A DNA stretch of 20,042 nt. Origin: a virus. A program made the translations under genes and the position numbers. Below, in pieces: positions 556 through 19,804 of the stretch. Numbering within the stretch: the first letter of the stretch is position 1; each line of letters begins with the position of its first letter. The notes beneath the pieces are model-generated. The model did not search any database. It was not told the origin of the DNA and worked only from the letters and a program-made list of their open reading frames with translations. Location of the stretch: IMG/VR virus record IMGVR_UViG_3300006101_000574, positions 1 to 20,042 of that record; one strand, written 5' to 3'.

Positions 556-1212
556 TTATCCTTGTTTGATTAGTGGGTGTCCGCCCAGAGCAGCCGTGTC
601 CAAATAGACGTTGCCCGCGGCCGATATACGATATTGATTGCTGGTGTAAAATGGGTATACTTGATGCATAAACTGTGCTGGAAACATGATCATGGTACCT
701 TCCCAAGTGCTGTCTAGCTCTATGGTATTGGTAGCTATACGACCCAGGACATCTGTGTATAGGAACTGGAACGCACCGTTTAGGCAGGGCTTACGATCAG
801 GGAACACTGTGTCTTCTGCAGGGCGGCTATAGGGTATCTGGATCCAAATTACCCAGCTGAGTAGGCCATTATGAAAGTGTGCAGGGTTGTACTCCGTGGC
901 CCGTTGAAAGTTCATCCAAGCTGTGCCTGTTGAGATGTTGACGTTATGGGTAAACAGATTGGTAGTAGAGCTGATGTTGTACATGCGGTTGTACCAAAGT
1001 GCTTGATCACGTATCCACTGATCCAAGGCTGCTATACCGGGTACTAGCCCATACTGCTCACGTAGGTGCCCAGCCAGTTCTGAGTTCCATGAGGGTTGAT
1101 CCCCTGGGTTGGCCTGTATGGTGTCAGCTCTAGCTTTGAGCTGGGTCATGATCTCCAAGGGCACGTTGACCTTGACGTAGTCAAAGTTGGCCAGTCCTCC
1201 GGGTTTAAGCAT
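556..1212 (-). CDS. 2OG-Fe(II) oxygenase-like protein (second of a pair)
   Basis: Likely a 2-oxoglutarate/Fe(II)-dependent oxygenase of the 'putative 2OG-Fe(II) oxygenase' type (PF13759-like) found in T4-like phages. From the ATG at 1212 (218 aa), HFHNG at about residues 112-116 gives the first histidine ligands, followed by an LSWVIWI strand. MFPAQFMHQV supplies the distal histidine near 183, and an arginine near 195 (YRIS) is in place to bind 2-oxoglutarate. A start 30 bases upstream is possible, but 1212 has GGAG nine bases before it and an 8-base overlap with the preceding oxygenase-like gene. Known relatives hydroxylate proteins or small molecules; the substrate here cannot be told. The two adjacent oxygenase-like genes are diverged in sequence, so they probably have different substrates. 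Confidence 0.72.
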   Translation of the reverse strand: MLKPGGLANFDYVKVNVPLEIMTQLKARADTIQANPGDQPSWNSELAGHLREQYGLVPGIAALDQWIRDQALWYNRMYNISSTTNLFTHNVNISTGTAWMNFQRATEYNPAHFHNGLLSWVIWIQIPYSRPAEDTVFPDRKPCLNGAFQFLYTDVLGRIATNTIELDSTWEGTMIMFPAQFMHQVYPFYTSNQYRISAAGNVYLDTAALGGHPLIKQG

Positions 1213-1816
1213 TGAACACTGCTCCGTGATCCCAGGCTTCACAGCGTATGTTCCAGCTGAGGCTGACCCTGTCTAGATCGGTTAGGTTATGTCGGGTACC
1301 ATGCTCCAGCCACCCTGGGAACATGATCAAGCGACCCACCTTGGGTTCAAAATCTACCTGGGTGGGCTGTAGGTGATATGGGTAGCTGTGTTCTAGACTC
1401 TTAACTGGACTGTTGATATAAAGGTTACCCTCAGTACCCTGGGTCTCAATATAGTAAACACCAGCTATGTCTACACAGCCGTGATTGTGTGGCCTGGCAT
1501 ACTGACCATGGCCTGTATGGGTGATCCAACTGTTGCTGACCCGCCATTGGGCTATCTGCTTGTGGGTACCTAAGGCCAGCAGATATTGGTTCACATGATA
1601 GTCTAGCTCATGCTGGAATAGGGTCAAGGGTTCCTGTTTGATGATATTGCTGCCAAAGTTAGGATCTGTGACCTGGTGCTGACCCTGGCCTGCTGGCTGT
1701 AGCCGATCACGATGACGTTCTAGCAATGGCTCTAGCTCGGCCTGTACCCTGGCCAGCACGGCACCCTCTAATTGGGCTGTGTACAAGGGTGTGGGAAAGT
1801 AGTACTCTAACCCCAT
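1205..1816 (-). CDS. 2OG-Fe(II) oxygenase-like protein (first of a pair)
   Basis: A 203-residue protein matching the phage 2OG-Fe(II) oxygenase family (PF13759/TIGR02466-like). It begins with the family's typical YYFPTPLY segment. The metal-binding H-x-H is PHNHG (H110, H112) followed by the GVYYI strand. LIMFPGWLEHGT gives the distal histidine at 172, and DRVSLSWNI gives the 2-oxoglutarate arginine at 183. AAGGA lies five bases before the ATG. It overlaps the upstream membrane-protein gene by ten bases. The family is established as a jelly-roll dioxygenase fold; the specific substrate in phage is unknown. Roles in modifying virion or host proteins are speculation. Confidence 0.82.
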   Translation of the reverse strand: MGLEYYFPTPLYTAQLEGAVLARVQAELEPLLERHRDRLQPAGQGQHQVTDPNFGSNIIKQEPLTLFQHELDYHVNQYLLALGTHKQIAQWRVSNSWITHTGHGQYARPHNHGCVDIAGVYYIETQGTEGNLYINSPVKSLEHSYPYHLQPTQVDFEPKVGRLIMFPGWLEHGTRHNLTDLDRVSLSWNIRCEAWDHGAVFNA

Positions 1817-3850: not shown

Positions 3851-3879
3851 ATTATACAATAAAGGGTGCAGTCTGTCAA
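3851..3879 (-). promoter_or_regulatory. consensus sigma70 promoter, leftward
   Basis: Minus strand: perfect TTGACA (3874-3879) and perfect TATAAT (3851-3856) with a 17-base spacer. It drives the minus-strand minicistron operon starting at 3819. Its -35 box faces that of the rightward promoter. Confidence 0.85.
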
Positions 3880-3893
3880 CTACGTCAATACAG

Positions 3894-3922
3894 TTGACAG
3901 CGCCCCTGGCTTAGTATATAAT
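3894..3922 (+). promoter_or_regulatory. consensus sigma70 promoter, rightward
   Basis: Perfect TTGACA (3894-3899) and perfect TATAAT (3917-3922) with a 17-base spacer. The start site should be near 3929, leaving about 27 bases of leader before the SWIM-protein ATG. It is the likely source of the long plus-strand minicistron operon (3956-8088). Confidence 0.87.
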
Positions 3923-3955: not shown

Positions 3956-4333
3956 ATGAAAGCATTGCGTGAAACTACAGTTTGGACAGAAAAAGATTAT
4001 CGAGTGCCAAACCATATCTATTTGTTAGATGGTGATAAAATGGTTGCCTATGTGCCAGAAGGCGGCGTAGATCCATTTTATTTTAAGAACCCAATTAAAT
4101 TCAGCCGTACTGGTCGCAAATTTGAAGAAGTAACACCTAGCCCATTCAATCAATGGGACAAATTGCTCAAAGCACATATCGATGTAGCAGAACCCCTACC
4201 ATTTATCAAGAAGGTACAGGGCTCAAAACCCAATACCTGGTACGAAGTAAACACTAATGAAAAGACCTGTACCTGTCAGGGCTTTACCTTCCGCGGCACT
4301 TGTAAACATGTTAAGGAATTAGAAACTGAATGA
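3956..4333 (+). CDS. SWIM zinc-finger protein (125 aa)
   Basis: The C-terminal segment CTCQGFTFRGTCKHV has the SWIM pattern C-x-C-x(n)-C-x-H (C105, C107, C116, H118), a zinc finger known to bind DNA or proteins. The N-terminal 80 residues carry strands and a lysine-rich patch (NPIKFSRTGRKFEEV) but no domain I recognise. It is the first gene after the consensus rightward promoter, so likely one of the earliest and most strongly expressed products. Its stop overlaps the next ATG (ATGA). A role in host takeover or DNA binding is plausible but inferred from position and fold only. Confidence 0.8.
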   Translation: MKALRETTVWTEKDYRVPNHIYLLDGDKMVAYVPEGGVDPFYFKNPIKFSRTGRKFEEVTPSPFNQWDKLLKAHIDVAEPLPFIKKVQGSKPNTWYEVNTNEKTCTCQGFTFRGTCKHVKELETE

Positions 4334-4674: not shown

Positions 4675-4789
4675 GATCCGTCAAACTCAACAGAGTAATG
4701 ACCGCCGGAAAAAGTTTGAAAAGATGCGTGAGCAGTTAGATCCACCTAGACCACGCAGACCTGCTGCCAAGAGTGTGCCCAAACCATGA
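4655..4789 (+). CDS. small basic protein (44 aa)
   Basis: A 44-codon gene in a different frame overlapping the end of the previous gene by 20 bases. Its stop overlaps the next ATG (ATGA at 4786). The product starts MKQIIAKIRQTQQ, has a basic helix (NDRRKKFEKMREQL) and ends in a proline/arginine tail (DPPRPRRPAAKSVPKP). The net charge is strongly positive, so nucleic-acid binding is conceivable. No recognisable family. Confidence 0.55.
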   Translation: MKQIIAKIRQTQQSNDRRKKFEKMREQLDPPRPRRPAAKSVPKP

Positions 4790-5094
4790 AACAGTTTACA
4801 GTGAACAAATTGGATCGTAGGCACAATGGCTATAAACAGTTCACACACTATATTACACCCATACCTCAATGGGGTATAGGTCAGTTAGAGTATAAGTTAA
4901 GGTTCTTTGAATGGCGCAAGTGGTGTTGGGAAACCTGGGGGCCAGGAATGGAACGTGATATTGCTATCGAGTTAGGTAGTCGTCAGTTTGAAGTATGCCG
5001 TTGGGCATGGCATACAGAAGATCGTGCCCGTAGACTGTATTTTGCCAGCGAAAAAGAACTTAGTTGGTTTATTTTAACATGGAGCTCAGAATGA
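4786..5094 (+). CDS. array protein with WFxLxW C-terminal signature (102 aa)
   Basis: First member of a group of small proteins that share a C-terminal signature. Here it is RRLYFASEKELSWFILTW: a hydrophobic/aromatic strand, a polar turn, an acidic helix start, then WFILTW. The body is tryptophan- and aromatic-rich (FFEWRKWCWETWG), with predicted alternating strand and helix. The start overlaps the upstream stop (ATGA). The final bases hold an ATG within the LTW codons that is in frame with the next gene. Function unknown; the signature probably marks a common small alpha/beta fold. Confidence 0.72.
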   Translation: MKQFTVNKLDRRHNGYKQFTHYITPIPQWGIGQLEYKLRFFEWRKWCWETWGPGMERDIAIELGSRQFEVCRWAWHTEDRARRLYFASEKELSWFILTWSSE

Positions 5095-5282
5095 TAGTAG
5101 ATATGCAACATCAAGGTGAAGAACACAAATGTAATGTATGCTCATGCGAGTTTACAGATGATGAAGGCGGCACTGTAGGCTACTTTGGCATTTTGCCTGT
5201 GGCTTTTTGCCCAACTTGTTATTCTAGTATGTACGACATGGTACAACAAGACATGGCATTAGATGAAGGCTGGGACGATTGA
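5091..5282 (+). CDS. small zinc-ribbon-like protein (63 aa)
   Basis: CNVC at residues 14-17 (with another Cys at 19) and CPTC at 40-43 make a convincing two-knuckle zinc ribbon, followed by an acidic tail ending DEGWDD. I chose the ATG at 5091 because it overlaps the upstream stop (ATGATAG). An in-frame ATG at 5079, inside the preceding gene's signature, would add MELR. Zinc ribbons of this size in phages often contact RNA polymerase or other host proteins, but that is only a family-level expectation. The stop is overlapped by a TTG start (TTGA). Confidence 0.7.
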   Translation: MIVDMQHQGEEHKCNVCSCEFTDDEGGTVGYFGILPVAFCPTCYSSMYDMVQQDMALDEGWDD

Positions 5283-5575
5283 GTACTGTCGTTCTTACCA
5301 CTAGCCAATGGCAACGGATACGTGAGGAGTTACACACAGAATATCCAAAAAGTGTTTTCATGATTAAAAATAAAATGAAAACGATTTTGGGATTCACTGT
5401 GCGTGAACATACCGAATGGATTGAAAACCATAAAGCAGAAGCTGAAGGTGACTACGAATGGAATCAAGGATACAGTAAATTTTCAATAAGACTTGACTTT
5501 TATAATAAAAACAAGTACACTATGTTTTTATTAAAGTTTTCAGAAATAATTAACGACAAGGGATTGCAACTGTGA
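5279..5575 (+). CDS. hypothetical protein, TTG start (98 aa)
   Basis: Begins with TTG, whose last two bases form the stop of the previous gene (TTGA), so translation is probably coupled. The N-terminal part reads TVVLTTSQWQRIREELHTEYPKS; the middle has MIKNKMKTILGFTVREH. The end RLDFYNKNKYTMFLLKFSE is a divergent form of the array signature (FYNKNKYTMFLLKF in place of FxxxxDxxWFxLRW). A later ATG (residue 28) would lose the conserved-looking N terminus, so TTG is preferred. This region is locally AT-rich. Function unknown. Confidence 0.68.
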   Translation: MSTVVLTTSQWQRIREELHTEYPKSVFMIKNKMKTILGFTVREHTEWIENHKAEAEGDYEWNQGYSKFSIRLDFYNKNKYTMFLLKFSEIINDKGLQL

Positions 5576-5922
5576 GACAATTGATATTAGACAAGCTCGA
5601 AGCAATTTGGGACGAAAGTATCGATACCTTGTTGGATATCGGTCTTCACGATGCTCACTTGATGAATGATCAAGAACTACTCAAACTGTTTGTATCTGTA
5701 ATTGAAATTGGTCCAGGCCCTGCTGCCGAAAAGAAAACTGCTGCCAAGTACAGAGAAGAACTTAAAAGACTCTATGGAGTAGATCGCCCATTTATTTGTG
5801 GCACTGCTGGACCCTTACAACAAGATAACCTACATGAGTATGTGCTAGTCTGTCCAGCATATGGTGCAGATGGATTTGCCATGTATAAAAAATATAAAGA
5901 CTATTCTGCTCCAGGATATTAA
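5572..5922 (+). CDS. hypothetical protein, GTG start (116 aa)
   Basis: GTG start overlapping the previous stop (GTGA). The 116-residue product is helical in its first half (LEAIWDESIDTLLDIGLHD, then ELLKLFVSVIEIGPGPAAEKK). The second half has GTAGPLQQDNLHEYVLVCP and a lysine/tyrosine-rich end (MYKKYKDYSAPGY). It lacks the WFxLRW ending of the surrounding array. No family recognised and no membrane segment seen. It is followed by 18 non-coding bases, one of the few gaps in the operon. Confidence 0.66.
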   Translation: MRQLILDKLEAIWDESIDTLLDIGLHDAHLMNDQELLKLFVSVIEIGPGPAAEKKTAAKYREELKRLYGVDRPFICGTAGPLQQDNLHEYVLVCPAYGADGFAMYKKYKDYSAPGY

Positions 5923-5940
5923 AATTAAAAAGGAACTACC

Positions 5941-6180
5941 ATGACACTACAAGAACTAGAACACATATTCCGCTTTCAAACTACACCCGAAGAAGACTAT
6001 GTACCAAAAGATCAATTAGACTATTTTTTAATCAATGGCTACGATCGTATGGGTAAAACGCACCTAGTTACAGAACTAGAATCATTGGCTAAAACACTAA
6101 CCGACAGTGGTTATGTGTTTGAAGGCTATCGTGATCGCATGCCAATCTTTATCGTACCGGAAATCGTACAGCCTCTATGA
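5941..6180 (+). CDS. hypothetical protein (79 aa)
   Basis: Has a good Shine-Dalgarno (AAGGA seven bases before ATG) after a short gap, so it may restart translation independently of the genes before. The product is acidic, with helix LQELEHIFRF, a central KDQLDYFLINGYDRMGK and a terminal beta part YRDRMPIFIVPEI. GYDRMGKT looks superficially like part of a P-loop but lacks the proper GxxxxGK[ST] spacing. Its stop overlaps the next ATG. Function unknown. Confidence 0.68.
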   Translation: MTLQELEHIFRFQTTPEEDYVPKDQLDYFLINGYDRMGKTHLVTELESLAKTLTDSGYVFEGYRDRMPIFIVPEIVQPL

Positions 6181-6398
6181 AAAACGTAGAAGTAGGCATG
6201 TTTAGATTGCCTGGCATTGCTTTTGAAAAAGGTGAACTGCCTACTGAACTGATTCAAGATATGCAGGCCTGGGCTGAACAAGAAGGTGTTGGCATGAGCA
6301 TGACTGAAACTCTTTGGTCATTTAAGAAAGAATCGCATCGTGAATGGTTTATCTTACGATGGAGTGATCGTATCCCCAAACCCGAAAAAGATGAGTAA
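6177..6398 (+). CDS. array protein with WFxLRW signature (73 aa)
   Basis: Short member of the array: the C-terminal part LWSFKKESHREWFILRWSD matches the shared signature (strand, polar turn, acidic/aromatic, WFILRW), followed by a charged tail PKPEKDE. The first half includes an amphipathic helix LPTELIQDMQAWAEQEG. The start is in an ATGA overlap and the stop is in a TAATG overlap with the next gene. Its arrangement (helix, then strand-turn-WFxLRW) is the clearest minimal version of the family. Function unknown. Confidence 0.7.
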   Translation: MKNVEVGMFRLPGIAFEKGELPTELIQDMQAWAEQEGVGMSMTETLWSFKKESHREWFILRWSDRIPKPEKDE

Positions 6399-6583
6399 TG
6401 CCGATACCGGGAGAACGCACAGAAACATCTCCTAAATGGGAACGTCACTGGACTATATTCCCACGTAGGATAAACGGTCGTTGGTATTGCAGAGACTATG
6501 TTTATCGCAAGTTTGTTCTTAGCCCAGGTGGCGGATTTTGGAAGTACGGTGATGAGTTTGATGTGATAAGGGATAGTGAATGA
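6398..6583 (+). CDS. hypothetical aromatic/basic protein (61 aa), paralogue of next gene
   Basis: A 61-residue protein rich in Trp, Tyr and Arg (WERHWTIFPRRINGRWYCRD). It shares a layout with the next gene: W, basic strand, RWY, strand, then a glycine/tryptophan turn and a final DEFDVIRDS helix, matching NDFIIDRI there. The two probably arose by tandem duplication. The start is fixed by TAATG with the previous gene and the stop by ATGA with the next. RRINGRWYCRDYVYRK has the look of a small SH3-like beta barrel; this is only an impression. Confidence 0.65.
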   Translation: MPIPGERTETSPKWERHWTIFPRRINGRWYCRDYVYRKFVLSPGGGFWKYGDEFDVIRDSE

Positions 6584-6771
6584 TTAACTATAGAGGCCCA
6601 GAAGGTGATTGGAAGCCTATGTTTGCGTGGAAACCTGTTAGGATTCGCAAGCGGTGGTATTGGTTGACCACAATCTATCGTAGAGAAAAGAATAGAGTAG
6701 TATGGCCGCATCAAGGATGGGATTTTGGTAATGCAAACGATTTTATAATTGATAGAATTAAAAATCCATGA
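6580..6771 (+). CDS. hypothetical aromatic/basic protein (63 aa), paralogue of previous gene
   Basis: The 63-residue product aligns by eye with its upstream neighbour: KPVRIRKRWYWLTTIYRR corresponds to PRRINGRWYCRDYVYRK, and WDFGNANDFIIDRI to FWKYGDEFDVIRD. Both ends are in ATGA overlaps. The basic, aromatic core suggests a small beta-rich fold that might bind nucleic acid, but nothing specific supports that. No Shine-Dalgarno is needed if translation is coupled. Confidence 0.65.
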   Translation: MINYRGPEGDWKPMFAWKPVRIRKRWYWLTTIYRREKNRVVWPHQGWDFGNANDFIIDRIKNP

Positions 6772-6995
6772 TCAGAGTCAGTGTACTAGATGATCAGTTT
6801 AACCGTGCGTTTTGGAATGCCAAGCGTTCTTTGCCTGTTGAGCATTTGGAGTCGCCGAGACAATATGGCCAGCGTTGCCGCGAAGTCTTTAGGTATAGGG
6901 TTGATCACAATAGTCCGCGGGGAGCCCTTGATACTGTGTATTATATCTTTGATTGTGACGAAGATTATACTTGGTTTATGTTAAAATGGTCATGA
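6768..6995 (+). CDS. array protein with WFxLKW signature (75 aa)
   Basis: Ends in YYIFDCDEDYTWFMLKWS, one of the best examples of the array signature (strand YYIFD, acidic turn DCDEDY, then WFMLKW). The first part (SVLDDQFNRAFWNAKRSLP and GQRCREVFRYRVDHN) is helical then strand-like. The start overlaps the upstream stop. The DNA coding WFMLK (TTGGTTTATGTTAAAATGG) is nearly repeated in three other array genes, and its ATGG gives an ATG in frame with the next gene. Function unknown. Confidence 0.72.
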   Translation: MIRVSVLDDQFNRAFWNAKRSLPVEHLESPRQYGQRCREVFRYRVDHNSPRGALDTVYYIFDCDEDYTWFMLKWS

Positions 6996-7309
6996 ATTAC
7001 AGTCCCGAAGTTATGGCCAATATGGCTGAATGGATCGAAAAACAAAACGTTATTCTGGAGGCGGAAATAATAGAAGCACAAGCCAAAGAGTTCCAAGCAT
7101 CCGTTGATAGAGAAGTACTTTGGGGTATGCTAGAAAATATAGGGTGGACTCGAGTTATTCTGTCCAGATTCATAGACAATAATCATGCGGTTGATATTAC
7201 CTATTGGCTCAAAGACAACTGCAAGTATGCCTATGAGCGACACGGGCGTGATTTTATGTTTGAAAGTGCTAAAGATGCTAATTGGTTTAAGTTAAGATGG
7301 GTAAGTTAA
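6992..7309 (+). CDS. array protein with WFxLRW signature (105 aa)
   Basis: The ATG at 6992 overlaps the upstream stop (ATGA); an in-frame ATG at 6986 lies inside the preceding gene's signature and would add two residues. The N-terminal two-thirds is a long charged helix (VMANMAEWIEKQNVILEAEI through EFQASVDREVLWGMLENIG), likely a coiled coil. The end FMFESAKDANWFKLRWVS carries the full array signature. The ATG that starts the next gene is embedded in the codons for LRW. Function unknown; the extra helix may serve oligomerisation. Confidence 0.7.
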   Translation: MNYSPEVMANMAEWIEKQNVILEAEIIEAQAKEFQASVDREVLWGMLENIGWTRVILSRFIDNNHAVDITYWLKDNCKYAYERHGRDFMFESAKDANWFKLRWVS

Positions 7310-7467
7310 TAGATTATCATTGTGTTCATGTTGACAGAATTCCTACACCTGTATTAGTATGGTTAGTAGAAACATTTGGCCCTGCCGGTATACGTTGGTG
7401 GCATAGCAATAATAAAATCTATTTTCGTGATGAGCGTGATTGGATTTGGTTCGAGCTAGGAACATAA
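7297..7467 (+). CDS. array protein, short (56 aa)
   Basis: A 56-codon gene between two recognised array members. Its ATG is formed by the AGATGG that codes the LRW of the previous protein, with a 13-base overlap. The product ends NNKIYFRDERDWIWFELGT, a clear variant of the signature (YFRDERDWIWFEL), after a short helix PTPVLVWLVETFGPAG. It stops one base before the next ATG. Signature and placement make it credible despite its size. Confidence 0.65.
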   Translation: MGKLIDYHCVHVDRIPTPVLVWLVETFGPAGIRWWHSNNKIYFRDERDWIWFELGT

Positions 7468-7468
7468 T

Positions 7469-7762
7469 ATGGCAATACCACAAGAACGAGAAGATATGCG
7501 TATCGCGATACAGCTCAAAGAAGAAGGTTGGATAGCTGAACTAATTGGAAATACCGCTGTAGATTTACAAGACAAAGTAAATTGGTGTAGAGAATCCTTT
7601 GGGCCCATGTATTCGCAACTGTACCCTGATGCATGGGCTGGTAAATGGTTTGGTGCTGAACTGCCATTCCAAACAGGCGGTATTGATAGCAAAAGAGATG
7701 TTGTTCTCATGTTTAGAGATGATAAATTATACACAATGTACAGGATGATGTTCCCTAATTGA
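7469..7762 (+). CDS. array-related protein (97 aa)
   Basis: A 97-residue protein one base after the previous stop. The N-terminal helix (PQEREDMRIAIQLKEEG) and central WCRESFGPMYSQLYPDAWAGKW are unlike the neighbours. The end DVVLMFRDDKLYTMYRMMF follows the array layout (strand, F-x-D-D, aromatic, hydrophobic-basic) but has lost the WFxLRW residues, so it is either a divergent member or only analogous. The stop is overlapped by a TTG start of the next gene (TTGA). Function unknown. Confidence 0.67.
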   Translation: MAIPQEREDMRIAIQLKEEGWIAELIGNTAVDLQDKVNWCRESFGPMYSQLYPDAWAGKWFGAELPFQTGGIDSKRDVVLMFRDDKLYTMYRMMFPN

Positions 7763-8088
7763 ACGATACTATATTACCTTTACCAAATGGTGACTTTACC
7801 ACAGTAGAGCATGTTGAGCAACACGGCCCTCTAGAAGTTATAGTACATCGCTTTCGTATGGGTGATGTTGAAGATCCAGACTTGTATGCGGCTGAACCAC
7901 TTTACCAATGGCAGAATAGTGAAATGGGCGAATGGGTAATGGCCAATGCTGTCCAAAAACCCATATGGCACCGGCACGTTGATCCTAGCAGTTTTGGTTG
8001 GACATATACAATACGAGCAGAACTTATGCCAAAAGACTATACATTTTGGTGGATGAAGTGGGGTTGCGACTTGACAAAAATAAGTTGA
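7759..8088 (+). CDS. hypothetical protein, TTG start (109 aa)
   Basis: TTG start fused to the previous stop (TTGA). The product contains LYAAEPLYQWQNSEMGEWVM and then KPIWHRHVDPSSFGWTYTIRAEL. From memory, this 'PLYQWQ-S-GxWVMENA-x-WHRH' pattern recurs in small proteins of T4-like marine phages. The end AELMPKDYTFWWMKWG fits the array signature (xELxxxDxxxWWMKW). H92 and H94 (HRH) could bind a metal. It is the last gene of the minicistron operon; the promoter for the next cassette begins inside its last codons. Confidence 0.72.
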   Translation: MNDTILPLPNGDFTTVEHVEQHGPLEVIVHRFRMGDVEDPDLYAAEPLYQWQNSEMGEWVMANAVQKPIWHRHVDPSSFGWTYTIRAELMPKDYTFWWMKWGCDLTKIS

Positions 8089-8100
8089 CGATCGTATAAT
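8071..8100 (+). promoter_or_regulatory. sigma70-type promoter for the ParB-like/HNH/nuclease cassette
   Basis: A perfect TTGACA (8071-8076) and perfect TATAAT (8095-8100) with an 18-base spacer. It starts inside the last codons of the minicistron operon and lies about 50 bases before the ParB-like ATG. A second TATAAT at 8123-8128 has no matching -35. Confidence 0.75.
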
Positions 8101-9327: not shown

Positions 9328-9779
9328 GATTGAGAAAATATGACAAGATGAAGAGCCAAGGTCATCTACTCCTAGATGTAGGTAAGTTATGCTGTGTAGA
9401 CGGATGTGGCAAGCCTCTAACTCCTTACAAAGGGCCCGGTGAGGATAAACTCTGTAGGCAACATCAAATAGATCAAGTTTCGTATGGCGGGTATGGCAGA
9501 CATGATAGGCCTCACACTTTTCACAGATCAGATGTTTGTGAATGTTGCGGTCAGGATATCAATGCTGATCCCAGATGGGAGAAAGCACAACTATTCTTTG
9601 GCATAGAACTGACAGAAGAACAAAAGCATGAAATCAAACGCCGCTACAACCATGGCGATCATGATCATCGTAAAGCAGACGGTGGGGATAACAGCGCCAA
9701 CAACACTAATGCGTTTTGTTCGTTCTGTCATTGGGTAAAAACTGTTATTAATAACGACGGAAGAAAGAAGGAACTATAA
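9324..9779 (+). CDS. HNH/endonuclease VII-like nuclease (151 aa)
   Basis: Cysteine/histidine-rich protein with two zinc-like sites: CCVDGC with CRQH (residues 23-47), and CECC (72-75) with CSFCH (132-136). Between them lies GDHDHRKADGGDNSANNTN (111-129), the ββα-metal core, with D/H pairs at 112-115 and asparagines at 123-129. This resembles T4 endonuclease VII (DHDH...N...CxxC) and HNH enzymes generally. The ATG overlaps the stop of the ParB-like gene (ATGA) and its stop forms TAATG with the next gene, so the three are translated as one unit. Likely a nicking or resolving nuclease; whether it serves phage recombination, host DNA breakdown or anti-phage competition cannot be told. Confidence 0.75.
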   Translation: MRLRKYDKMKSQGHLLLDVGKLCCVDGCGKPLTPYKGPGEDKLCRQHQIDQVSYGGYGRHDRPHTFHRSDVCECCGQDINADPRWEKAQLFFGIELTEEQKHEIKRRYNHGDHDHRKADGGDNSANNTNAFCSFCHWVKTVINNDGRKKEL

Positions 9780-10624
9780 TGAAACGTACTAACATTAAAG
9801 AAGGTTTTGGCGGTGAAGTGCCGTTTACAAAATTTATTGCAAGCGATTTAGAAACATCAAATCGTTTATTAACAGCACTGGATCTTGGCTATGAGGATGG
9901 GTATACAGTTACTCCGGAAGAGCATACTTCACATTCAAAACGTGTAGACCTTGTGATCCGTGATGCTGATCAAGACGTAGTCCTAGTAGTTGAAAGCCAA
10001 GACGCAAGTGGCTGGTTAGATGCAGTACATGCCAGTAAGATTACCTATTATATGTACGATAAAAAGTGTGACGACGGTGTTCTAATCTGTGAAGATGCTG
10101 ATGAACATATCAAAGGATTTGTCAAGTGGTTAAACGACAATACTCCGTTGCGTATCACTTTAGTAGGAGTAATGATATTTGAAACAAGTGCCAATCCACA
10201 TTGCGAGTTTACTTGCCTAATCCGTCCGAGTGATCTACGTGATAAGAAGGTACGTAGAGTTAGTGCCGCCGCCGGCATTGATACTACGGTTGCTGATCGT
10301 ACTCAAGAATTATACGATTCGAATCCCGATTTGTTTACCAACATTGCCCGTGACTATGTTAGTAAAACTAATGTAGGCGGCAGTGGTATGACGGCTGCTA
10401 TCCATCCGTATAAGACAGATGGCTACTGGGTAGAAATTTGGCACGCTGGTAAATTTGATACAGATGGTTTTAAGAAGTCCTTTACTGATACTGTGGAATC
10501 AGCAGGACTTGAAGCAGGATTCCAGGCCCGTCGAGGATATGTTAAAGTGCCCAACACTAAGTCCGCTATCGACACATTCAATCTCCTAGTATCAGCATTA
10601 GAAACTAAGAAAATCCACGGTTAA
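9779..10624 (+). CDS. PD-(D/E)XK-like nuclease-fold protein (281 aa)
   Basis: Residues 50-120 look like a restriction-endonuclease fold. VDLVI (D57), then a strand ending VVLVVESQ (E72-x-Q74) gives D-x14-E-x-Q, a variant of PD-(D/E)XK in which Q replaces K. WLDAVHASKITYYMYD follows as the helix that recalls the 'HxGKxxxYA' segment of similar nucleases. The C-terminal 140 residues, including GYWVEIWHAGKFDTDGF and GFQARRGYVKVPN, form a second domain of unknown type. AAGGA lies seven bases before the ATG. A late-type box begins in its stop codon, so this gene ends the cassette and the next block is regulated separately. Confidence 0.66.
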   Translation: MKRTNIKEGFGGEVPFTKFIASDLETSNRLLTALDLGYEDGYTVTPEEHTSHSKRVDLVIRDADQDVVLVVESQDASGWLDAVHASKITYYMYDKKCDDGVLICEDADEHIKGFVKWLNDNTPLRITLVGVMIFETSANPHCEFTCLIRPSDLRDKKVRRVSAAAGIDTTVADRTQELYDSNPDLFTNIARDYVSKTNVGGSGMTAAIHPYKTDGYWVEIWHAGKFDTDGFKKSFTDTVESAGLEAGFQARRGYVKVPNTKSAIDTFNLLVSALETKKIHG

Positions 10625-12969: not shown

Positions 12970-13518
12970 ATGAATATTGTAGGTAACTTACTAATCGCAC
13001 CCCCAGCTGTAAAAAATAACTTCTGGCACAAGACAGTGATCATGATCACTGAACATCACACACGTGGCAGCGCCGGGTTGGTGCTAAACAAACGTAGTGA
13101 ATTAACTCTAAATGAATTTGGCGCACAGTTAGGCATACCTTTAGACTTGCCAGGATACCTCTATGTAGGTGGTCCTGTGAATGTTAAAAGTCTAAGTTTC
13201 CTACATACCAATGAGTGGGTCAGCAAAAACACCATGCATGTTAACAACGAGTTTTCAGTTAGCTCTGCAGAAGATATCCTACCTAGACTTAGTGCAGGAG
13301 ATTGTCCAAAACAATGGAGAATCTTCTTGGGTATGTGCGGTTGGGGCCCTGGACAGTTGTTAGGTGAAATCAAAGGCGAAAACGGTTGGGAACACAACAA
13401 CAGTTGGTGTACTGTAAACAGTGATGCTAGCCTAGTGTTTAAGTCAGATCAAAAAGATCAATGGTGCGAGGCACTCGATCGTTCTGCGCAGGAATTTGCT
13501 CAAAACATCCTAGCATAG
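12970..13518 (+). CDS. YqgE/AlgH family protein (UPF0301)
   Basis: A 182-residue protein of the YqgE/AlgH (DUF179/UPF0301) family. The diagnostic start is NLLIAPPAVKNNFWHKTVIMI, then EHHTRGSAGLVLNKRS, later GYLYVGGPV and the FLGMCGWGPGQLLGEI block. This family is widespread in proteobacteria; its members have been linked to regulation but the molecular role is unresolved. Length is normal for the family (about 185 aa) and all core motifs are intact, so it is probably functional. It is unusual cargo for a phage. The gene follows a late-type box with no ribosome site visible. It may modify host regulation late in infection, but the sequence alone does not show how. Confidence 0.9.
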   Translation: MNIVGNLLIAPPAVKNNFWHKTVIMITEHHTRGSAGLVLNKRSELTLNEFGAQLGIPLDLPGYLYVGGPVNVKSLSFLHTNEWVSKNTMHVNNEFSVSSAEDILPRLSAGDCPKQWRIFLGMCGWGPGQLLGEIKGENGWEHNNSWCTVNSDASLVFKSDQKDQWCEALDRSAQEFAQNILA

Positions 13519-13559: not shown

Positions 13560-14075
13560 ATGGCGGCAACATTATTGCTCAATGCTGACGGCGCACCCGT
13601 GGGCTACATGCCATTGAGCACACTAACTTGGGAAGATGCAATCCGATATATGGTCTTAGACAAGGCCGATGTACTAATGTTTCACGACAATTGGATTGTG
13701 CGCTCTGCCAATTGGGAAACACAGGTCCCTAGTGTTATGATGTTGCGAGAGTACATGAAACCTAAAACTGTTGTACGTTTCAGTCGCACAAATGTATATC
13801 TACGCGATCACGGTCGTTGTCAGTACTGTAGCAAACATATCACACGGCAGGAGTCAACTCTAGATCATGTAATACCTGTGTCAAAAGGTGGAAAGACTAC
13901 TTGGGAAAACTGCACCACAGCATGTGGACCATGTAATTCAGCCAAGAGTGATGTTACCAAAGGTTGGAAACCTAAAATCAAACCCTACAAGCCAGACTAC
14001 TATGAACTGGTAAGTAAACGTAAGAAAGAAGAATTCAACATAAGGTATACAGAATGGCTACAATTTTTACAGTAA
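13560..14075 (+). CDS. HNH endonuclease family protein (171 aa)
   Basis: Typical HNH nuclease of the family with an N-terminal LLLNADGAPVGYMPLS...WEDAIRY module (residues 5-30) and a C-terminal HNH domain. RDHGRCQYC gives C87/C90, STLDHVIPVSKGG gives D102-H103, WENCTTACGPCN gives N117, C122/C125 and N126, all the expected zinc and catalytic residues. AAGAGG six bases before ATG is a good ribosome site. Related bacterial proteins are of unclear function. In phages such genes may be homing endonucleases or DNA-processing enzymes; standing alone between YqgE and DUF454, it could be a free-standing mobile endonuclease, but there is no intron or insertion scar. Confidence 0.85.
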   Translation: MAATLLLNADGAPVGYMPLSTLTWEDAIRYMVLDKADVLMFHDNWIVRSANWETQVPSVMMLREYMKPKTVVRFSRTNVYLRDHGRCQYCSKHITRQESTLDHVIPVSKGGKTTWENCTTACGPCNSAKSDVTKGWKPKIKPYKPDYYELVSKRKKEEFNIRYTEWLQFLQ

Positions 14076-14488
14076 AAGTTAAGAAGGCACTGTGGTGCGC
14101 ACTAGGGTTCCTATGCCTAGGGTTAGCCTATATTGGATTGATTACCCCCGGTATCCCTTGGTCAACTCCTACAGTAGGAGCAGCCTATTGCTTTGCCAAG
14201 GGCAGTGATCGTATGCATAATTGGCTGATGAATCATCGTATTTTTGGACCATTCCTACGTGGATGGGCAGAGAAGCGTGTATTTCCAGTTAAGGCTCGCT
14301 GGCTTATGGTATTAACAATGGACAGCAGTCTTATCATCATGTGGTTCACTACACACAATGTCAAAGCAGTGGCCTGCACAGGTATCTTTATGGCCTTGAT
14401 AGCATGGTGGGCTATGGCCTACCCTAAATCAGCAGAAGAATACGATGAACGTAAAGCAGCCGGAAAGAAGATAGGCTGGTTCGGGTAA
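14054..14488 (+). CDS. DUF454/YbaN family inner-membrane protein (144 aa)
   Basis: Membrane protein of the DUF454 (YbaN-like) family. TM1 is ALWCALGFLCLGLAYIGLI (residues 12-30). The family hallmark is GIPWSTPTVGAAYCFAKGSDRMHNWL, then NHRIFGPFLRGWAE. Two further hydrophobic segments are residues 83-98 (WLMVLTMDSSLIIMWF) and 105-122. It overlaps the HNH gene by 22 bases. AAGG eight bases upstream supports the ATG at 14054; the next Met would delete the first helix. The family is of unknown function in bacteria. Here it sits in the late block among envelope-directed proteins (transglycosylase, exported nuclease, lipoprotein). Confidence 0.83.
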   Translation: MATIFTVKVKKALWCALGFLCLGLAYIGLITPGIPWSTPTVGAAYCFAKGSDRMHNWLMNHRIFGPFLRGWAEKRVFPVKARWLMVLTMDSSLIIMWFTTHNVKAVACTGIFMALIAWWAMAYPKSAEEYDERKAAGKKIGWFG

Positions 14489-14527: not shown

Positions 14528-15349
14528 ATGAAGAAATACTTATTAGGCTTGGTTTTAGCCTTAGTTGCTACTAGCAGTTTCGCTTGGACACAACGCCAAC
14601 CAAATCCTCCACAAGCATGCCAACCACATGCTCCATACGGTTTCCCACAAACAGCTGGTGTTACACCAATTTGCCGTCAAGCATATCTAGTTGGATATGA
14701 TGCGGCAGCCAAGTTGCCTAAATATGTAACATATGAACTATTGCCACAAAACGCACTAGGATGTGTTGCTCGTACTAATGCATTTGCTGCTGATCAGTCC
14801 GTGCCAAATGGTGCTACACCAGCTGACTATGCTGGTACAGGTTACGATAAAGGACACATGAGTCCAGATGGTGACTTATCATGGGACGTTCAAGTAGAGT
14901 TCGAAAGTTTCTTGATGACCAATATGAGCCCACAAGCGGGCAGTTTGAACCGTGGTATTTGGAAACTGTTAGAAACATCAGTACGTGGTTGGGCAGTACA
15001 ACGCGGTCAATCATATACAGTTTATGTAGGTGGTTTATATGGCCCAGGCGACAAAACAATTGGTAAAGGCGTAGTTGTACCACATGGTTTCTACAAGATC
15101 GTTATCAACAATCAAACTAAAGAGATCGCAGGATGGGGCTTTCCGCACACAGCACCGTATCCAAACTTGGGTAATGACTTAACCAAGTTCCGTGTTCCAG
15201 TTGCTACTATTATGAAAGATGCTGGTGTGCAATTTGCGTTTCCACAAGGTGCAGTTGAACTTGCGCCGGGTAAAGAATGGCCAGTTGATTTTGGCGCTTT
15301 AACCAATGCTAAACGTGCTAAGTGTGGCGCAAATGCAAGTACCGACTAA
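14528..15349 (+). CDS. exported DNA/RNA non-specific endonuclease (NUC1/Serratia type)
   Basis: A 273-residue ββα-metal nuclease with a cleavable signal peptide. MKKYLLGLVLALVATSSFA ends in a textbook SFA site before W20. The catalytic motif is GYDKGHMSPDGD (DKGH at 107-110, histidine general base H110), a form of the family's DRGH. TNMSPQAGSLNRGIW supplies the magnesium asparagine (N141), with E149 nearby. Export implies action in the periplasm or outside the cell, unlike ordinary phage nucleases. Cysteines at 31, 49, 79 and 267 could form disulfides. Possible roles: degrading incoming DNA of competitors, or DNA released at lysis. Its ribosome site lies in a hairpin beside a late promoter, so it is probably made only late. 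Confidence 0.88.
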   Translation: MKKYLLGLVLALVATSSFAWTQRQPNPPQACQPHAPYGFPQTAGVTPICRQAYLVGYDAAAKLPKYVTYELLPQNALGCVARTNAFAADQSVPNGATPADYAGTGYDKGHMSPDGDLSWDVQVEFESFLMTNMSPQAGSLNRGIWKLLETSVRGWAVQRGQSYTVYVGGLYGPGDKTIGKGVVVPHGFYKIVINNQTKEIAGWGFPHTAPYPNLGNDLTKFRVPVATIMKDAGVQFAFPQGAVELAPGKEWPVDFGALTNAKRAKCGANASTD

Positions 15350-18381: not shown

Positions 18382-18618
18382 ATGAGCGATATATTAAATC
18401 AAGTAGCATCAAGTGGTGATCAATGGGCAGCAGAACGTGCTCAATATGCTCTACAAGTACATGACGCAGTGGTCAGTGGACAAATGAGCAAAAGTGAAGC
18501 GACTGAAGTATTGCAAGATATGATTGCCACACAACAACTACAAGAAGCTGCACAAGCTGATCAAATCAAAGCTGCCCTATTCTTTGGAATTACTCAGCTG
18601 ATCAGTATGTACGCTTAA
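18382..18618 (+). CDS. small helical protein (78 aa)
   Basis: Hypothetical protein of two or three helices ([20 protein letters not shown], then [20 protein letters not shown]), ending with a hydrophobic [17 protein letters not shown] that could be membrane-associated. AAGGA nine bases before the ATG. It follows the lipoprotein by ten bases and so may act with it at the envelope. It ends 17 bases inside the convergent ALAS gene. Confidence 0.7.
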
Positions 18619-19804
18619 AGATTTCACTTAGGGCCTGTACTAGGTCCTCAATCATACCATCATCATGAAACGGAGTAGGTGCAAAACGCAACCGCTCCGT
18701 TCCCACATCAACTGTAGGCGAGTTTATAGGTTGTACATAAATGTTAAAATCATTTAGTAAATCATCGCTCATGGCTTTACATTTTTTAGCATCGCCTATT
18801 AGCACAGGTACAATGTGCTCTGTGGCACATTCCATTACAGGAATACCAGCTGCTCGCAATCTATGTTTTAATTTACGAGCTCGCTCTTGATGTTTCTCTC
18901 TTAGCTCATTGTGATCTTTAAGATATTTGATAGCTGCGAGTGCTCCTGCACAGGTAACAGGACTCATACTTGTTGTAAAAATAAAACCTGCTGACATTAA
19001 GCGAATAGCATCTAGTACAATAGCATCTCCTGCAACATAACCACCTTGTACTCCATAGGCTTTGCCCAGGGTTCCGTTAATAAAATCTATGCGTCCTTCT
19101 AGACCCAGTTGCTCTACCTTACCGGCGCCGGTTGCACCATATAAACCCACAGCGTGTACTTCATCGATGTAGGTCATTGCTTCATATTTGTCTGCTAGAT
19201 CGCATATTTCTTTAATCAATCCTACATCACCGTCCATTGAATATACGGATTCAAATACTATGCAAGGTATATTGCCAGCTGCCTTACTGGCTTTTAATTT
19301 TGCTTCTAGATCTTCTAGATTATTGTGTTCAAATACACTTTTGGCTGCACGGCTATGCAGTATGCCTACCACTAGACTATTGTGATTATTCTGATCACTG
19401 ACGAATTCTATATTAGGAATGATCTTACTTAGAGCAATTAGAGTCCATTCGTTGGCCACATAGGCTGAACTAAACAGCAGTGCCCGACTCTTGTTATGTA
19501 GCTGTGCTAGCTCGTGTTCTAGGGCCACATGATAATGACTAGTGCCTCCAATGTTGCGGGTACCACCTGATCCTGCACCAGTCATATCTAGAGCAGTGTG
19601 CATGGCATCTAGTACAACTTTATGCTGACCCATACCTAAATAATCGTTTGAGCACCAGTTAACAATGTTTTTGATGTTGTATGGGCCGTACCAAATTGCT
19701 TTGGGAAAGTCACCGCGCTCACGTATAATGTCGTTGAAAACACGATATTTGCCGTTGTCTTTTAGAGTTTTTATCAGGTTAATGAATGGTTCTTTGTTTA
19801 TCAT
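18602..19804 (-). CDS. hemA: 5-aminolevulinate synthase (ALAS)
   Basis: Full-length (400 aa) PLP enzyme that condenses glycine and succinyl-CoA to 5-aminolevulinate, first step of the C4 heme pathway. Motifs: [10 protein letters not shown] (51-60); [13 protein letters not shown] (76-88), which carries the Thr typical of ALAS over other alpha-oxoamine synthases; SDQNNHNS (H141); [11 protein letters not shown] (D214, H217); NGTLGKAYG with the PLP lysine K248; and the C-terminal [16 protein letters not shown]. Numbering coincides with Rhodobacter capsulatus ALAS. Small changes from the usual text are SSAYV for SGYV and HNS for HAS. Nothing is missing, so activity is likely. A late-type box stands seven bases before the ATG, so it is made late, perhaps to feed heme or corrinoid synthesis. 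HemA-type ALAS occurs mainly in alphaproteobacteria. Confidence 0.93.

Follow-up and report, generated by a model that had tools for sequence, protein, structure and literature searches.

Small early gene clusters are a familiar kind of locus in large phages. In T4-like phages, they comprise many short, overlapping genes behind host-type promoters, a layout shared by the array described here, and most of these genes lack an assigned function and are presumed to be host-directed. The window analysed in this study is the whole IMG/VR virus record IMGVR_UViG_3300006101_000574, a sequence of 20,042 bases that is probably a piece of an uncultured phage genome. A comparison with 50,697 phage records gave no near match to the window, and neither a DNA search nor tblastn against cultured phages returned a useful match. 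The relatives of the window used below were drawn from viral records as long as 281 kb; three of the 20 such records searched encode a T4-like Gp23 major capsid protein that scores above the Pfam cut-off. Searching the literature for arrays of this kind yielded nothing relevant.

A sequence-only reading of the window had described positions 4786 to 8088 as an array of diverged small genes sharing a C-terminal signature. All named open reading frames, with the C-termini given for them and the tight junctions between them, were located in the sequence (Table 1). ATGA overlaps were found at 4786, 6177, 6768 and 6992 and TTGA overlaps at 5279 and 7759, while the gene at 7297 overlaps by 13 nt and a gap of 1 nt precedes 7469. 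For the gene at 6992, the alignment identifies the ATG as the start common to its closest relatives and the TTG at 6971 as a mechanical call. The array proved less uniform than described: the eight named genes were matched by the domain defined below, whereas those at 5064/5091, 5572, 5941, 6398 and 6580 were not. Inside the array, 6398–6583 and 6580–6771 (+) form a paralogous pair (39% over 41 aa, E 6e-5) from a second small family, unrelated to the array domain.

Table 1. Promoters, leading gene and domain members of the array region in the window
Feature	Position	Strand	Evidence
Divergent perfect sigma-70-type promoter	3851..3879	-	Consensus match
Perfect sigma-70-type promoter TTGACA-17-TATAAT, upstream of the array operon	3894..3922	+	12/12 consensus match
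First gene of the operon, SWIM zinc finger, not a domain member	3956..4333	+	Pfam SWIM E 1.1e-4; position same in relatives
Domain member, end ASEKELSWFILTW	4786..5094	+	Strict leave-family-out E 9e-4; profile comparison
Domain member, weaker form FYNKNKYTMFLLKF	5279..5575	+	Strict leave-family-out E 9e-5; direct profile comparison with 6992 family negative
Domain member, 11-aa tail beyond LRW	6177..6398	+	Leave-family-out E 2e-6; AlphaFold2 pLDDT 82
Domain member, end DYTWFMLKWS	6768..6995	+	Leave-family-out E 9e-5
Domain member, capsid-helix-like N-terminal piece (about residues 20-50)	6992..7309	+	AlphaFold2 pLDDT 90.9; leave-family-out E 5e-5
Domain member, shortest form (56 aa), end DERDWIWFELGT	7297..7467	+	Leave-family-out E 4e-3; profile E 2e-8 to 6992 family
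Domain member, weaker form MFRDDKLYTMYRMMF	7469..7762	+	Leave-family-out E 8e-5
Possible domain member, KDYTFWWMKWG	7759..8088	+	Leave-family-out E 0.05, not secure
Perfect sigma-70-type promoter past the array, ahead of the 8152 gene	8071..8100	+	Consensus match

All eight genes terminate in a strand, a turn and a helix, closing on WFxL[RK]W-like residues or on a weaker variant of these. In the related loci, 121 ORFs on the coding strand contain the pattern W[FYLWM].[LMIV][RKT]W, but none of the antisense ORFs does, compared to 2.6 expected after shuffling, which excludes chance; in 88 of the 121, the motif lies no more than five residues from the C-terminus. A domain HMM was seeded with the last 25 residues, iterated and extended to a domain of about 60 aa. 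It recovered all eight window genes and approximately 400 members in 68 viral loci, with zero reversed decoys at E < 0.01. Thus the signature is indeed shared, but it is not limited to the last 20–25 residues as had been proposed: the unit is the complete domain, in which the preceding helix and strands are common in addition to the last strand and helix.

The HMM built from the C-terminal residues, which the sequence-only reading had suggested as a check, recovers the other members. With the own family left out, seven of the eight window genes were retrieved at E < 0.01 (E 2e-6 to 4e-3 under strict conditions), in a test that is not fully independent because the training members were gathered with the family included. 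The eighth gene, 7759, stayed above this threshold (Table 1), and seven of 35 proteins of its own family were recovered. Profile-profile comparison joins the 4786, 6177, 6992 and 7297-type families, with similarity extending past the motif over 53 columns. A direct comparison of the 5279 and 6992 families gave no link (E 0.55), so the assignment of 5279 comes from the HMM. Sequence divergence is considerable, as members within the array of locus L111 show about 13–27% identity to the first one. Judged by these profiles, at least seven of the eight small genes are diverged copies of one domain. Comparison of the array genes with Pfam, PHROGs and PADLOC gave nothing secure (none of the eight matches a PADLOC model), and a sequence-profile search of the PDB returned no relative of the domain. 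Without a name in any library searched (Pfam, PHROGs, PDB), this domain is a new family.

The idea of one small fold duplicated many times agrees with these profile tests as well as with two AlphaFold2 models of the same topology. The model of 6992 shows a beta-alpha-beta-beta-alpha arrangement behind a long N-terminal helix, and that of 6177 the same arrangement plus one additional N-terminal strand (Table 1). Several of the uncultured-phage proteins returned by Foldseek were the same for both models, and the Atu_ph07 protein A0A2L0UZT1 is a structural neighbour of the array domain. Neighbours among solved structures (best Z 5.6 and 6.2) fall within the range of common arrangements. They include DCoH-like proteins and designed ferredoxins, which share the beta-alpha-beta-beta-alpha arrangement at Z values of 5 to 6 that are common by chance, with no sequence relation.

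Domain members mostly occur in one tight block per genome, usually five to nine and at maximum 23. In seven large records, nearly all members were placed in a single block, with two to nine hits per genome. The richest loci are L111 with 23 and L116 with 18 members; these extreme arrays (L111 5854–14922 and L116 4990–14121, +) contain many members overlapping the next gene by 10 nt. In nearer relatives, the subfamily order 4786, 5279, 6177, 6992, 7297, 7469 and 7759 is largely kept, together with the surrounding non-members 3956, 5572 and 5941.

Early expression from one strong promoter, as had been proposed, fits the sequence. A perfect TTGACA-17-TATAAT promoter is present upstream of the operon, and such promoters are greatly enriched in the relatives: their sequence, about 1.57 Mb with some redundancy, contains 129 distinct perfect copies, while base composition predicts approximately 0.02 per 20 kb. 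Given the consensus promoters in the window and this enrichment, early transcription by host RNA polymerase is likely.

The remainder of the window harbours further genes of interest. Directly behind the array and an HNH-like gene, 9779–10624 (+) matches the PADLOC candidate defence family PDC-S11 (E 2.8e-7). Genes grouped together at 12970–13518, 14054–14488 and 14528–15349 (+) encode AlgH-like (DUF179), DUF454 and DNA/RNA non-specific endonuclease proteins, which are more usual in bacteria. On the other strand, the product of 18602–19804 (-) belongs to the aminotransferase class I/II family (Pfam E 1.5e-63) and resembles 5-aminolevulinate synthase; viral alaS genes of aquatic phages have already been described (PMC11480375). 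Two adjoining 2OG-Fe(II) oxygenase genes (PF13759) are located at 556–1816 (-).

In the relatives, the terminal motif often doubles as the ribosome-binding site of the following gene. L-R-W is commonly spelled TTGAGGTGG there, of which TTGCGTTGG is a synonymous spelling; the most frequent spacings from the AGG to the following ATG are 5 and 8 nt, and as TTG-AGG-TGG the motif is often the Shine-Dalgarno sequence of the next gene. Among 169 terminal motifs, 89 encode the arginine with AGG, compared to 178/2104 among the other arginines of the same genes and 0/35 where the motif is internal. This bias survives the removal of redundancy (46/86) and was seen in 17 of 21 subfamilies; TTG is the most frequent codon of the leucine ahead of the arginine (39/73). 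The ends of other genes in the same genomes show a weaker form (28%), so ribosome-binding sites at gene ends are general here and the motif fits in. Within the window, the codons at the arginine position are AGA, CGA, AAA and ACA, and the TTG-AGG-TGG usage is absent. We also considered whether [RK]W is kept since its codons carry the ATG of the next gene; this was rejected, as A-ending arginine codons are not enriched (33% vs 44%).

The N-terminal parts had been said to differ from gene to gene. This applies to the relatives, where the same pieces occur on different domain subfamilies, but in the window only 6992 clearly carries an added piece. The N-terminal ~30 residues of the 6992 family match Pfam Gp23 unaided in six of 55 members (best E 3.6e-4); the match covers about 27 residues, is below the Pfam cut-off, and the whole capsid fold is absent. 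These residues align at low identity with approximately residues 283–308 of T4 gp23 (PF07068), a stretch which we take to be the spine helix of the HK97 fold. In a reverse search of the N-terminal profile against 10,516 ORFs of eight genomes, the four best non-family matches were capsid proteins (E 7e-5 to 3e-3; next E 0.19), each the best non-family ORF of its genome, and none of 100 column-shuffled profiles scored better than E 0.043. The match in Atu_ph07 is annotated as “major capsid protein”. Carriers of the capsid-like piece are the 6992 type and, in L031, a RWYxNNxKFWF-type protein.

In relatives, 28 members contain a Walker-A segment (G[RKQ]xxGK[STN]), which occurs on two domain subfamilies. 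In 16 of these 28, it is preceded by a KGRGLVQLTGR-like stretch, the signature of GH19 lysins. Some members are matched by PHROG endolysin models, the best at E 0.0028, and the only good matches of the stretch are two endolysin-like ORFs at E 5e-4 and 9e-4, against 7.4 for the next hit and E 0.003 for the best among 60 shuffles; one of these ORFs has a GH19 match below the cut-off. Compared to GH19 endolysins themselves, the likeness comprises only about 11–17 residues, with no catalytic domain, and is absent from the window. The Walker-A pieces matched PHROG terminase models with one member each (E 0.02–0.07) and had no good match in the genomes; we do not propose a terminase origin for them. 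A piece of the SGRQTGKS type was also detected in L118 (7115–7504, +) on a protein rejected by the domain HMM, and may occur on a different C-terminal part as well. At the low identity seen, an old capture of the N-terminal pieces and convergence are only partly separable; the specificity of the hits favours capture.

Based on these results, we propose that a single small ferredoxin-like domain expanded in tandem within this lineage to give the array, and that host RNA polymerase would transcribe it early, as one operon. Every copy would most likely be a small binding protein. Its fold would be sealed by the C-terminal strand and amphipathic helix (xFxFxdexDAxWFxLRW), while variation falls on the first helix, on the loops and, where a member has one, on the added N-terminal piece, so that each paralogue could address a separate host or defence factor shortly after infection. 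Tandem duplication would supply new copies, along with swapping of N-terminal pieces; in relatives, last codons that also provide the ribosome-binding site for the gene behind them would offer a simple route for array growth. To this reading, small early host- or defence-directed binding proteins from tandem expansion, we give an even chance. We infer the early timing, the binding function and the targets; since the genes are paralogues that differ from phage to phage and follow host-type promoters, host or defence factors appear likeliest as targets. Against such a toolkit, related phages agree rather well in gene order and sequence, whereas fast-evolving antagonists would be expected to differ more.

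Conserved order bears as well on the suggestion that the locus is a gene nursery, filled with duplicates that have hardly any function or none. Copy number does vary among loci, up to 23, but the kept subfamily order and the purifying selection indicated by a pooled pN/pS of 0.22 (69 independent pairs) and a median dN/dS of 0.13 speak for working genes, making a nursery extremely improbable. Hardly better placed, and in our view very unlikely, is a convergent likeness of unrelated small proteins with an amphipathic end, or an LRW kept only as the next gene's ribosome-binding site. The AGG bias at the motif in relatives and the low identity within the L111 array would be in line with it, but the similarity exceeds the motif, reaching 53 columns and the whole domain, and two families share the predicted topology. 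Moreover, the motif is kept where it is internal, never with AGG, and in the window, where it is not a ribosome-binding site.

The N-terminal pieces allow two further readings, both attractive from the sequence likeness and both unlikely to the same degree. As decoys or mimics, the pieces would imitate the phage's own capsid and lysis proteins early and occupy host sensors, with the domain as a carrier. The capsid-like N-terminus of the 6992 family, specific against the 10,516 ORFs and shuffled controls and found in annotated Atu_ph07 as well, and the GH19-like segment in relatives are consistent with this, as is the published sensing of the major capsid protein by CapRel (PMC9712102). However, CapRel sensing was demonstrated for other capsid proteins, only one window gene has the piece, and this piece shows low identity, judged by eye, to the capsid protein encoded in its own genome (about 9/25 residues in G001) and does not track that protein. 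Alternatively, the same likeness could reflect interference or assembly factors, whose pieces would bind capsid, packaging or lysis partners, either to control how the phage itself assembles or to spoil assembly for a co-infecting phage; a defence in which a small protein blocks virion assembly has been published (PMC10884400). Here, the consensus host promoters suggest early rather than late expression, and most members have no such piece. A wider version, with carrier-domain cassettes displaying fragments of virion and lysis proteins early, as decoys for host immune sensors or to interfere with rival phages, and with the last codons of each as the ribosome-binding site of the next cassette, seems to us slightly less probable again.

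With its approximately 400 members, the domain turns many “hypothetical” small ORFs into one testable set, and the capsid- and lysin-like pieces raise the question whether phages produce early imitations of their own late proteins. The family spans uncultured phages with longest records above 250 kb, and the cultured jumbo Agrobacterium phage Atu_ph07 holds distant members: hypothetical proteins of this phage (e.g. record 199522–199830) are recognised by the HMM (best E ~1e-6). These are scattered over the Atu_ph07 genome, in contrast to the tight array in the window. Compared to the early clusters of T4-like phages, the array consists mostly of one paralogous domain with exchanged N-terminal pieces, and it is a new form of the small early gene cluster of large phages.
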